Source: Clostridiaceae bacterium
GTDB lineage: Bacteria > Bacillota > Clostridia > DSM-8532
NCBI GenBank assembly: GCA_012520615.1
Contig: JAAYNX010000025.1
Coordinates: 1-35,583 of the forward strand
Direction of reading: 5' to 3'
Length of the DNA: 35,583 bases
Part shown: positions 7,215 through 15,206 of the stretch, piece by piece
How the letters are laid out: every line of letters starts with the position of its first letter
Numbering within the stretch: position 1 is the stretch's first letter
Made by a program: the position numbers and the translations under genes
Notes under the pieces: model-generated
Databases searched by the model: none
What the model saw: the letters and a program-made list of their open reading frames with translations, nothing else
What the model was told of the DNA's origin: nothing

Positions 7215-7599
7215 TTATTTCAATCTTTGAATCGTATTCTAAGAATTATGCGAACTAAAATATGGTCAAATAGATAGCGGATGCAAAATCTCACTTCGAA
7301 CGCCTCTAAGCACCCAATTCTAATAGATCAATTTCCCCGGCAAGTGATATGGCTAAGTCTTTGCTCCGCCATATCCGGCAAAGTGGTCTTTTACTCACGG
7401 GCTGCTCAATCTTTCTAATAAAGTTTTTCTGCGGTGGTTTTTCCTCAGAAGCTACCGGTTTATCTCATTGAGAAACCTTACATCCGCCACACTCAGTTAA
7501 ACCGTGGAATGTGCAATATTTAACATTGATAGGAACTGCTGGCTATGTCAAGTGAGAAATGGCGCGGGATTGCGGGGCTGGAAGGCCGCTACACTGTTT
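7215..7599. other. Gene-free stretch at the left edge of a decayed island
   Basis: This stretch holds the left ~118-bp arm of an inverted repeat (7236-7354), an imperfect hairpin around 7459-7479 (GGTTTaTCTC/GAGAAACC), and a 20-codon frame at 7544-7606 resembling a NUMOD4 motif. I see no functional gene in it. Confidence 0.6.
7236..7354 (+). repeat. Left arm of ~118-bp imperfect inverted repeat
   Basis: The segment matches the reverse complement of 9181-9297 along nearly its whole length. Shared blocks include ATGCGAACT, ATCTCACTTCGAAC, CCTCTAAGCACC, TAATAGAT and AGTGAyATGGCT, in the same order with small gaps. The two arms enclose about 2.06 kb of decayed ABC transporter sequence. Confidence 0.75.
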
Positions 7600-12692: not shown

Positions 12693-13412
12693 TTGTCTAT
12701 GGATAACTCTCTTTACACATGTGATTCATGCCAGCACAAGCTTTGTGCCGGTCGAGTTTCAATTTTTACTTCATTGAACAGGGAAGAATTAACTAAAGTT
12801 GCGAAACTTATAGTACATAAAAAGTATAAAAAAGGCGAATTACTGCTTTATGAGGGTGAGGTCAGAAATGATCTTATTATAGTGAATAAAGGCCAGGTAA
12901 AAGCCTTTAAAAACTCTGCAGAAGGACGCGAGCAGATTCTCTATATTTTTTCTGAGGGAGATTTTTTCGGAGAAAAGAATTTATTGAGGGATCAGGCATC
13001 AAATTATGGAGTAGAAGCATTGGAAGAAACACATGTTTGTATTATACACAAGGATAAATTTCAAAAGTTGGTTCAAGAATACCCCTATATCGGGCTGAAA
13101 GTAATGGAGATTCTATGCCAAAGACTTGACCGCCTAGAAAATACTGTTGAAACAATGGGAACCCGCACTGTAGATGCGAGGGTAAGCTCCGTTTTGCTTG
13201 AATTTGCCGATAAATTCGGAAAACCAAGTACACAAGGTACAATAATAGACTTACCATTGAGCCGTGAAGGTATCGCAAATTATATAGGCCTTACTCGGGA
13301 AACCGTCAGCAGGAAGATGAGCTCAATGCAAGATGAGGGTATGATTGAAATGATAGGAAATAAAAAGATTCTGCTCCTAGATCGGCTTGCTCTGGAAAAA
13401 TCAATAGGATAA
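12693..13412 (+). CDS. FNR-like CRP-family regulator with probable [4Fe-4S]-ligating cysteines
   Basis: A 239-residue CRP/FNR transcription factor. The N-terminus has C10-x2-C13-x4-C18, close to the C-x2-C-x5-C of E. coli FNR, and C116 (ETHVCIIHKDKF) falls where FNR has Cys122. This four-cysteine pattern predicts an oxygen- or NO-sensitive Fe-S cluster. A cyclic-nucleotide-type beta-roll (~25-120), a dimer helix (~130-155) and a C-terminal HTH (LSREGIANYIGLTRETVSRK) follow. The recognition helix RETVSR has the Arg/Glu/Arg spacing that CRP uses to read TGTGA, and a TTGTGA-N6-TCACAG site lies downstream at 13605. TTG 12693 is chosen because of its spacing from AGGACGG (12681-12687); ATG 12699 is the alternative. 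Confidence 0.85.
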   Translation: MSMDNSLYTCDSCQHKLCAGRVSIFTSLNREELTKVAKLIVHKKYKKGELLLYEGEVRNDLIIVNKGQVKAFKNSAEGREQILYIFSEGDFFGEKNLLRDQASNYGVEALEETHVCIIHKDKFQKLVQEYPYIGLKVMEILCQRLDRLENTVETMGTRTVDARVSSVLLEFADKFGKPSTQGTIIDLPLSREGIANYIGLTRETVSRKMSSMQDEGMIEMIGNKKILLLDRLALEKSIG

Positions 13413-13738
13413 GCATACATATTTGTCATATTTAATTGTAATGGTCGCTATCAAATTACTCACATATTAGTCCAAAAACATAACCTATTTATGATCTCCC
13501 ACCTCTGGGGTACAATCTCAAACTGTAGACGTTGAATGGGACAGTTTTTATATCAAAGATAATGTTTGTATCAATTTTAGTGTATATAATAGAACCAATT
13601 TAAATTGTGAGTTTTGTCACAGATTCTGGATTCTTTTTACTGTACCTTATAATTAATACAATATTTATTGATTAAATATGCCAGAAAAAAGCCAAACTAG
13701 CTTTAGAAGCTGTCTGGTAATTGTAAAGGGTGATGTAT
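13413..13738. other. Regulatory intergenic region between the FNR-like gene and DUF1858 gene
   Basis: There is no gene here. It holds a weak hairpin AAACTGT (13520-13526)/ACAGTTT (13541-13547) followed by T-rich DNA, perhaps a terminator for the regulator gene. It also has two TATAAT boxes (13585-13590 and 13648-13653) and a CRP/FNR-type palindrome at 13605-13622. Confidence 0.5.
13605..13622 (+). promoter_or_regulatory. CRP/FNR-type operator palindrome
   Basis: TTGTGA-GTTTTG-TCACAG is a near-perfect TTGTGA-N6-TCACAA palindrome. A TATAAT (13648-13653) lies downstream and the best 17-bp-spaced -35 position (13625-13630) is poor and abuts the palindrome. That is the geometry of a class-II activated promoter driving the DUF1858/DUF438 genes. 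If the upstream TATAAT (13585-13590) is used instead, the site would act as a repressor operator. Confidence 0.65.
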
Positions 13739-13984
13739 GTGAATAAGGTCTTAGATATGCATAAATCAATATATGATTTGACAAAAGAATATCCGGAAAT
13801 AGTTGAAATAATGAGGAGCTTGGGGTTTGAAAAAATAACAGACCCATTAATGATAAGTACAGCAGGAAGGTATATGACAATACCAAAAGGAGCTTCTATG
13901 AAAAAAATCAATTTGGACAGCATTATTAAAGAATTTGAAGCAAGAGGTTTCATAATTAAATACGGAGGTAATGATCATGAGTGA
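13739..13984 (+). CDS. DUF1858-domain protein
   Basis: An 81-residue protein matching the DUF1858 pattern: SIYDLTKEYPEIVEIMRSLG followed by KITDPLMISTAGRYMTIPKG and a C-terminal helix ending FEARGFIIKYGG. DUF1858 is related to the ScdA N-terminal domain that precedes hemerythrin domains in RIC/YtfE/ScdA iron-centre repair proteins. GTG 13739 is preferred because AGGGTGAT (13727-13734) is suitably spaced; ATG 13733 in the same frame would lie on that site. Its end overlaps the start of the DUF438 gene by 8 bases, so the two are translationally coupled and probably act together. Confidence 0.8.
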   Translation: MNKVLDMHKSIYDLTKEYPEIVEIMRSLGFEKITDPLMISTAGRYMTIPKGASMKKINLDSIIKEFEARGFIIKYGGNDHE

Positions 13985-15206
13985 GATTATTAACAATCGA
14001 GAGCATCGCCAAAAGGTTTTAAAAGAGATTATTAAGGAGCTTCATAACGGAAAGACTGTAGATGATGTAAAATCACAATTTGCTGAATTGATTAAAGGAG
14101 TATCCACTACCGAAATAACCGAGATGGAAGGTGCGCTGATAGCCGAAGGAATGCCAGTGGAGGAGATTCAGCGGCTCTGTGATGTTCATGCGGCGGTATT
14201 CAAGGGCTCCATAGAAGAGATTCACAGGCCTCAAAAACCAGAAGAAATCCCTGGACACCCTGTTCATACTTTTATAAAGGAAAATAAAGCAATACAAGAG
14301 CTTATAGAGAATATCCAAACTGATATTGCGGCGTATAAAGCAGATGCATCAAAAAAGAATCTTAAGAAAATTTCAAACAACTTTGAGATGCTGTGGGAAA
14401 TAGATAAGCATTATTTGAGAAAAGAAAACCTCCTATTCCCCTATTTGGAGAAATACGGGATAACTGCTCCGCCGAAGGTTATGTGGGGTGTAGATGATGA
14501 GATCCGCGGAGAAATAAAGGAAGTTGTTAATGGTTTTAAGTCCTCTATAAATAATGATAAAGAACAGCTGATTAAAAAGGCCGAAGATGCTTTAAACCGT
14601 GTAAGTGAGATGATTTATAAAGAAGAAAATATTCTGTTTCCTATGTCTCTGGATACATTAACGGAAGACGAATGGGTCAGAATCCAAAAAGAAAGCAAGG
14701 AATTTGGCTATACACTTTATAAACCTAAGGATAAATGGAAGCCTGTTAAGGTGGATGTGGAAGGAAAGATACTGGATCAAGGGGAGGAGCCCTCAAATAA
14801 CGGCTATATTGAATTTGATGCCGGATTTTTGACCCCCGAAGAAATCAATGCAATATTGAACACAGTTCCTTTTGACATGACATTTGTCGATAAAGATGGA
14901 GCCGTCAAATATTTCACTATGGGCAAGGATAAAATTTTTGCTCGCCCCAAGTCGGTTATCGGCAGACAAGTTAGTAATTGTCACCCTCCTGCCAGTGTAC
15001 ATGTGGTGGAAAAAATTGTGGAAGACTTTATGTCTGGTAAAAAAGACCATGAAGATTTTTGGATTCGCATGGGTCCAAGATATGCGTTTATTAGATATTA
15101 TGCGGTAAGAAATGCTAAAGGGGAATACTTGGGCACTCTGGAAGTGACGCAGGATATCGCCCCTATACAAGACATTACAGGCGAAAAGAGACTAGCGACT
15201 GATTAA
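13977..15206 (+). CDS. DUF438 protein with hemerythrin-like and PAS domains
   Basis: A 409-residue protein with three parts: an N-terminal DUF438 domain (~5-90), a hemerythrin-like HHE domain (~92-240; GHPVHTFIKEN, EIDKHYLRKENLLFPYLE, MWGVDDEIR, YKEENILFP), and a PAS-type sensor domain (~290-400; LNTVPFDMTFVDKDGAVKYF, SNCHPPASVH, RNAKGEYLGTLEVTQDI). The His/Glu set could hold a di-iron centre; the conserved NCHPPASVH in the PAS part is a candidate cofactor contact. Function is unknown; redox, O2 or NO handling is inferred from domains and the neighbouring FNR-like regulator. ATG 13977 is chosen because GGAGGT (13964-13969) lies 7 bases upstream; ATG 13971 is too close to it. Confidence 0.88.
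   Translation: MSEIINNREHRQKVLKEIIKELHNGKTVDDVKSQFAELIKGVSTTEITEMEGALIAEGMPVEEIQRLCDVHAAVFKGSIEEIHRPQKPEEIPGHPVHTFIKENKAIQELIENIQTDIAAYKADASKKNLKKISNNFEMLWEIDKHYLRKENLLFPYLEKYGITAPPKVMWGVDDEIRGEIKEVVNGFKSSINNDKEQLIKKAEDALNRVSEMIYKEENILFPMSLDTLTEDEWVRIQKESKEFGYTLYKPKDKWKPVKVDVEGKILDQGEEPSNNGYIEFDAGFLTPEEINAILNTVPFDMTFVDKDGAVKYFTMGKDKIFARPKSVIGRQVSNCHPPASVHVVEKIVEDFMSGKKDHEDFWIRMGPRYAFIRYYAVRNAKGEYLGTLEVTQDIAPIQDITGEKRLATD

Follow-up and report, generated by a model that had tools for sequence, protein, structure and literature searches.

What does a transcription factor control, and what does it sense, when it carries the cysteines of FNR but the DNA-recognition helix of CRP? A 35,583-nucleotide stretch of DNA from a Clostridiaceae bacterium (GenBank assembly GCA_012520615.1, contig JAAYNX010000025.1; hereafter the window) raises this question, because it encodes such a regulator upstream of a palindrome and of two overlapping genes for proteins with DUF1858 and DUF438 domains. 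We consider it likely that the regulator is a class II activator of a regulon for iron-sulfur (Fe-S) cluster assembly and repair and for defence against O2 and nitric oxide (NO), and that its four cysteines most likely hold an O2- and NO-labile [4Fe-4S] cluster. An earlier note on this locus had described the regulator, the palindrome and the two genes; it had missed that the palindrome appears to belong to a wider regulon that includes nifS-nifU, and that the promoter has the geometry expected of an activator's target. The features concerned are as follows:

12693 to 13412, forward strand: CRP/FNR-family regulator of 239 residues, TTG start (alternative ATG at 12699)
12720 to 12746, forward strand: codons for Cys10, Cys13 and Cys18 (Cx2Cx4C), predicted cluster ligands
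13038 to 13040, forward strand: codon for Cys116, aligned with FNR Cys122
13296 to 13313, forward strand: recognition helix R202-E203-T-V-S-R207, of CRP-type specificity
13605 to 13622, forward strand: predicted operator TTGTGAGTTTTGTCACAG (TTGTGA-N6-TCACAG), its centre 41.5 bp before the predicted start point
13643 to 13648, forward strand: predicted -10 element TACCTT, with TG (13641-13642) immediately 5' and a poor -35
13730 to 13984, forward strand: DUF1858 protein of 84 residues without cysteine, GTG start (alternative ATG at 13733)
13971 to 15206, forward strand: DUF438-Hemerythrin-PAS_10 protein of 411 residues

The regulator matches PF00027 (1.9e-22), PF13545 (HTH_Crp_2; 1.3e-18) and PF00325 (3e-11), which places it in the CRP/FNR superfamily, and a gap of 318 bp separates its gene from that for the DUF1858 protein (PF08984, 5.6e-19). 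The DUF438 protein matches PF04282, PF01814 and PF13596, and its gene overlaps the DUF1858 gene by 14 bp, in keeping with the coupling described earlier.

Operator, promoter geometry and regulon

The palindrome at 13605-13622 is where the earlier note had placed it and is the only site in the window that matches all ten core positions. A matrix trained without this site gives it a score of 26.6, and the next independent place on either strand of the 35.6 kb scores 6.1. Perfect-core TGTGA-N6-TCACA sites occur three times in the 2.67-Mb genome, compared with one occurrence of the reversed-pattern control. If one mismatch is allowed, genome and control give equal counts (12 versus 12); taken by itself the motif is therefore a weak indicator, and where it lies is important. 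The enrichment over the reversed control is confined to perfect-core sites and to the class II pattern described next.

At all three perfect-core sites a TAnnnT hexamer starts 20 nt past the end of the 18-mer, and another hexamer rich in TA starts at 25 nt. The TAnnnT lies exactly 20 nt past the site in 26 of 34 homologous promoters, against 7 at the best other offset and 9 in the best of 2000 shuffles, a fraction that overstates the independent evidence, since most of the 34 come from orthologous promoters within a single genus. A hexamer at this offset puts the centre of the site at -41.5 relative to the predicted start point, with a weak -35, as at class II promoters activated by FNR and CRP. 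In 14 genomes of the genus the class II pattern (site plus -10, with one mismatch) yields 69 matches versus 25 for its reversed counterpart. The earlier note had set the palindrome beside a poor -35 and a TATAAT; the TATAAT is indeed present at 13648-13653, but its position is conserved in 7 of the 34 promoters versus 26 for the TAnnnT upstream of it, and TACCTT at 13643-13648 is more likely to be the -10. By these comparisons the palindrome is an operator.

The three perfect-core sites of this genome precede DUF1858-DUF438, a gene for a 64-residue CxxC-DUF1858 protein (C38, L137) and nifS-nifU (C206, L138). Sites with at least nine of the ten core positions were found upstream of nifS in all ten genus genomes whose upstream region was usable (nine from the nifS upstream survey, together with G005) and in 0 of 18 from outside the genus (Fisher test, 8e-8). 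The CxxC-DUF1858 gene, too, has such a site before it in 12 of 12 genomes of the genus, a case in which the control outside the genus is weaker, the proteins there being only distant relatives; three outside genomes (G016, G022 and G026) have one common 9/10 match at 206-208 bp. Among other relatives, sites with a conserved TCACAG half lie upstream of DUF1858-DUF438 or of an fprA gene leading into it (L034, L035, L039, L046 and L052, with fprA in L046), and further sites of this kind lie upstream of DUF1858 (L066, L073, L081, L083, L085 and L091). Genuine scdA genes, which encode ScdA_N and Hemerythrin domains, lie behind class II sites in G009, G012 and G013, as do single-cluster ferredoxin genes and zwf (both in G006 and G007) and a gene for a protein of about 100 residues without a Pfam match (G005, G006, G007). 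Single-genome cases, which we regard as tentative, are bacteriohemerythrin (G008) and ribonucleotide reductase, cupin and lipoprotein genes (G009). Where scdA adjoins DUF1858-DUF438 (L044, L108, G004) the regulator heads the cluster, being partial at a contig edge in L044; in L085 the gene after the regulator encodes a rubrerythrin. Conservation of the palindrome, the regulator and the target genes thus extends beyond this strain, and the earlier note had made its proposal depend on synteny of the two gene groups in other strains.

We note that the protein of about 100 residues (L276:2553-2864, L277:222-533, L278:2621-2923) is conserved, contains the sequence RVHGDxHPEFHEV and resembles one ScdA helix. 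We also note that zwf and gnd accompany DUF1858/DUF438 and the operator at several loci (L085:2266-5299, L137:7137-8630, L210:264-1781, L211:2523-4013); the presence of oxidative pentose-phosphate genes beside the operator suggests a link to NADPH supply.

It could be argued that another regulator, such as a CRP homologue, Rex or a missing IscR (the sensor of Fe-S status that controls the isc genes), binds the palindrome and that the adjoining FNR-like gene is incidental. Two genus members, the metagenome-assembled genomes G005 and G011, have operators but no detected regulator, and fba is preceded by a related palindrome (TTGTGAAAAAAATCACAG when read in the opposite orientation) that looks like a Rex box. 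We attribute the first observation to assembly gaps, because in G011 only 752 bp lie between a contig end and the start of the gene that neighbours the regulator locus, and G005 lacks this neighbour as well. Positions 7 and 12 of the sites are not the A and T of TTGTGAA-N4-TTCACAA. In addition, the three paralogues found in this genome lack the R-E-x3-R signature of the recognition helix, and none of the 18 genomes tested outside the genus has the nifS site. We therefore regard binding by another protein as improbable and infer that the adjoining regulator occupies these sites. A CRP/FNR-fold activator would then recognise TTGTGA-N6-TCACAN and, from a position 41.5 bp before the start point, would turn on DUF1858-DUF438, the CxxC-DUF1858 gene and nifS-nifU here, and scdA (encoding RIC), fprA, ferredoxin and zwf in relatives. 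The regulator, as judged from these sites, very probably switches on dispersed genes for building and repairing Fe-S clusters through one common DNA signal.

Separately, a perfect-core palindrome (mostly TGTGATTTTTTTCACA) lies 18-38 bp before the start codon of an aldolase-like gene in several genomes of the genus (L181, L186, L190, L193, L194, L197, L205 and G011 C20), where the gene that follows resembles, by eye, one for fructose-bisphosphate aldolase. Because class II geometry is absent there, this palindrome perhaps serves repression or another regulator such as Rex. We also considered whether the regulator replaces IscR. No Rrf2 (IscR-type) match above the family cut-off was found in this genome, but the idea is weakened by the finding that most genus members carry Rrf2 genes elsewhere; outside the genus, an Rrf2 gene lies directly upstream of nifS in G035 only.

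Cysteines, DNA specificity and dimer interface of the regulator

Reading of the open reading frame and alignment with E. coli FNR bear out the cysteine pattern given in the earlier note. C20, C23 and C122 of FNR align with C10, C13 and C116 of the regulator, while C29 of FNR has no partner in register, the third cysteine following after x5 in FNR but after x4 in the regulator; C18 is its positional counterpart. Orthologues at 47-85% identity were found within the genus and beyond, and loss of the cysteines among them had been named beforehand as grounds for abandoning the proposal. Instead, all four are kept in orthologues of at least 47% identity with an intact N-terminus, the sole exception being L052, where the regulator is duplicated in tandem (L052:3995-5511) and one copy is without C13. 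An extra perfect-core site lies in L052 at 7337-7354, downstream of DUF438. Distant clostridial paralogues retain C18 and C116 with different N-terminal spacings and have QETLSR or PETISR as the helix. These helices, with Cys-rich N-termini (some of them Cx2Cx5C), are found in a separate clostridial group of CRP/FNR paralogues (L018-L026, L088, L095), whose DNA specificity is likely to differ from that of the regulator.

The cysteines might instead sense redox through disulfide or persulfide chemistry, zinc or haem, like other CRP/FNR proteins, without any Fe-S cluster. Cluster binding is not readable from sequence, and both the x4 spacing and the retention of C18 and C116 by paralogues with varied N-terminal spacing would accommodate such a protein. 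Nevertheless, the conservation of exactly four cysteines, including the C122 equivalent, and a set of targets centred on Fe-S assembly are best explained by a cluster, and we think a regulator without one rather unlikely. The [4Fe-4S] cluster, which would report Fe-S status, is our best guess for what is sensed because of this cysteine set and these targets.

The helix RETVSR is of the CRP type and not of the VETISR type of FNR, and the operator correspondingly is not the TTGAT-N4-ATCAA of FNR. Helices of this type pair with TGTGA under the rule that assigns R180 and E181 to G3 and A6 (Rodionov 2005, PMC1274295), and the earlier assignment of TGTGA rather than TTGAT is in agreement with both this rule and our alignment of the helix. 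The regulator is set apart from cyclic AMP-binding CRP proteins by Ser103, which aligns with the Arg of the phosphate-binding cassette (the cyclic AMP pocket) of GlxR. An AlphaFold model shows a confident CRP fold, its structural neighbours are generic CRP/cNMP proteins, and no relative of the regulator was found in viral contigs.

The dimer interface bears on the direction of the switch. In FNR, Asp154 is the charge barrier that makes dimerisation cluster-dependent, and the D154A protein is dimeric, remains active and is considered to retain DNA binding without the cluster (PMC4214427). Asp154 aligns with Leu148 of the regulator, a position occupied by Leu, Met or Ile in orthologues of at least 47% identity. 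The regulator is therefore probably a permanent dimer, with or without its cluster, and the direction of switching cannot be carried over from FNR. Because Leu148 predicts a dimer either way, cluster state would tune activation rather than monomer-dimer exchange, and activation by either the intact or the damaged form would be allowed. One version of our interpretation, differing only in that the direction is fixed, is that the regulator works as FNR does, the intact [4Fe-4S] cluster activating Fe-S biogenesis in anoxia and O2 or NO switching it off, so that the targets are anaerobic housekeeping genes and not a stress response. In favour of it, the regulator has the same cysteine set and class II geometry as FNR, its targets include ferredoxin, and an obligate anaerobe requires Fe-S proteins in abundance; on the other hand, the targets also include damage-response genes (those for RIC and flavodiiron protein and, as single-genome cases, bacteriohemerythrin), and Asp154 is replaced by Leu. 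We hold this version to be a serious possibility, somewhat short of an even chance. With slightly more reserve we raise the reverse, in which loss of the cluster, or damage to it, makes a permanent dimer activate the genes of Fe-S assembly and repair, a CRP/FNR protein thereby doing what the Rrf2 protein IscR does, and in which the DUF438 protein has a rewired metal site of new function.

Besides the relatedness of the 34 promoters, several observations weigh against a cluster-bearing activator of Fe-S assembly and repair. If the intact cluster were the active form, as in FNR, damage would shut down the repair regulon, an awkward consequence; with RIC and flavodiiron protein among its members, the regulon would make most sense if induced by damage, although the opposite may hold. 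Within the genus no operator was found upstream of the regulator gene, and autoregulation is thus not supported. In L108, which has the order regulator-scdA-DUF1858-DUF438, no good site was found, and G003 and G010 keep the regulator with no intact DUF1858-DUF438 adjoining it. Lastly, the N-terminus of the AlphaFold model is disordered (residues 1-9 below 50, residues 11-20 about 63), and this poor stretch of residues 1-20 left the cluster geometry unreadable. We note that in G003 and G010 (L144, L145, L142) the regulator lies next to a carboxyltransferase gene, and that G003 holds only a short DUF438 remnant, elsewhere.

DUF1858, DUF438 and RIC

The earlier note had proposed that the DUF1858 and DUF438 proteins form a two-polypeptide, sensor-bearing counterpart of RIC, and our comparisons do not support this. 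The di-iron ligands of the RIC protein YtfE are H84, H129, E133, H160, H204 and E208 (PMC9268430, PMC9052748). In a profile alignment H129 and E208 are kept as H147 and E218 of the DUF438 protein, and E133, H160 and H204 are replaced by K151, D175 and M214, each of which is invariant in 81 of 81 homologues; H96 may replace H84, whose helix lies outside the aligned part. The hemerythrin domain does align with YtfE, although the match is modest (hhalign probability 68%, E 5e-5). The DUF1858 protein of the window has no cysteine and matches ScdA_N with a probability of 4%, compared with 94% for the CxxC-DUF1858 protein encoded behind the same type of operator. DUF1858 and ScdA_N are distantly related through the CxxC subfamily, and this CxxC-DUF1858 protein would be the ScdA_N-like free-standing partner, if any exists. 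There is no match to PF04405 (ScdA_N, with its CC motif) in the proteins of the window and no ScdA_N gene was found in the genome, which leaves room for a functional stand-in. In relatives, a true RIC coexists with DUF1858-DUF438, belongs to the regulon and has its own operator in three genomes. A RIC cut in two is, in our view, highly improbable, and the DUF438 protein seems better described as a hemerythrin-like PAS protein that shares in the regulon and whose metal site is altered.

Across the 81 homologues the DUF438 protein has an invariant CHPP (C337-H338-P339-P340) in its PAS domain and W172-G-V-D-D176 together with M214 in its hemerythrin domain, residues that are candidates for an unusual metal or haem site. 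Clear relatives of known structure, 2fi0 for DUF1858, 3cax (PF0695) and 2qkp (PAS_10) for the DUF438 protein, are titled uncharacterised or conserved proteins, and our literature search found no paper that names DUF438 together with DUF1858. The shared operator and promoter geometry tie these two poorly characterised families to assembly by nifS-nifU, repair by genuine RIC and flavodiiron defence, and so give them a testable function. They also predict that a CRP/FNR protein regulates Fe-S homeostasis in anaerobic clostridia, here in a genome without an Rrf2 match at the family cut-off.

Comparison with known systems

With E. coli FNR and other [4Fe-4S] FNR proteins the regulator shares the CRP/FNR fold, the N-terminal cysteine triad with the Cys122 equivalent, and the class II position at -41.5. 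It differs from FNR in having Cx2Cx4C instead of Cx2Cx5C, a CRP-type helix, a TGTGA operator, Leu in place of Asp154, and targets in Fe-S assembly and repair. The resemblance to IscR lies in the logic of responding to Fe-S status and not in structure, as IscR has an Rrf2 fold.

The HcpR proteins are likewise CRP/FNR regulators of anaerobes, and their predicted regulons often contain ferredoxin- and hemerythrin-like genes; the Desulfovibrio site, wTGTGAnnnnnnTCACAw, resembles that of the regulator, and the site of clostridial HcpR2, GTAACnnnnGTTAC, differs from it (PMC1274295). HcpR proteins are without the FNR cysteine motif and have hcp and frdX as main targets (PMC1274295), so that the regulator, despite its TGTGA-N6-TCACA-type site, is separated from them by its cysteines. 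A CRP/FNR protein is also linked to DUF1858 in Bradyrhizobium, where NnrR adjoins and activates the DUF1858 gene bsl7085, although the operator there is TTGCGCTCCAACAA and the regulon is one of denitrification (PMC6710368). DnrD is an activator of ric in Pseudomonas stutzeri (PMC9268430), and a review of RIC describes control of ric by NsrR, DnrD, NorR and SrrAB, and not by a clostridial FNR-type activator. As for RIC (YtfE/ScdA) itself, DUF438 proteins differ from it in the three missing ligand equivalents and in their additional DUF438 and PAS domains. What the two have in common is a hemerythrin-like domain, a relationship between ScdA_N and the CxxC-DUF1858 subfamily and, in relatives of this bacterium, the presence of genuine scdA within the same regulon.

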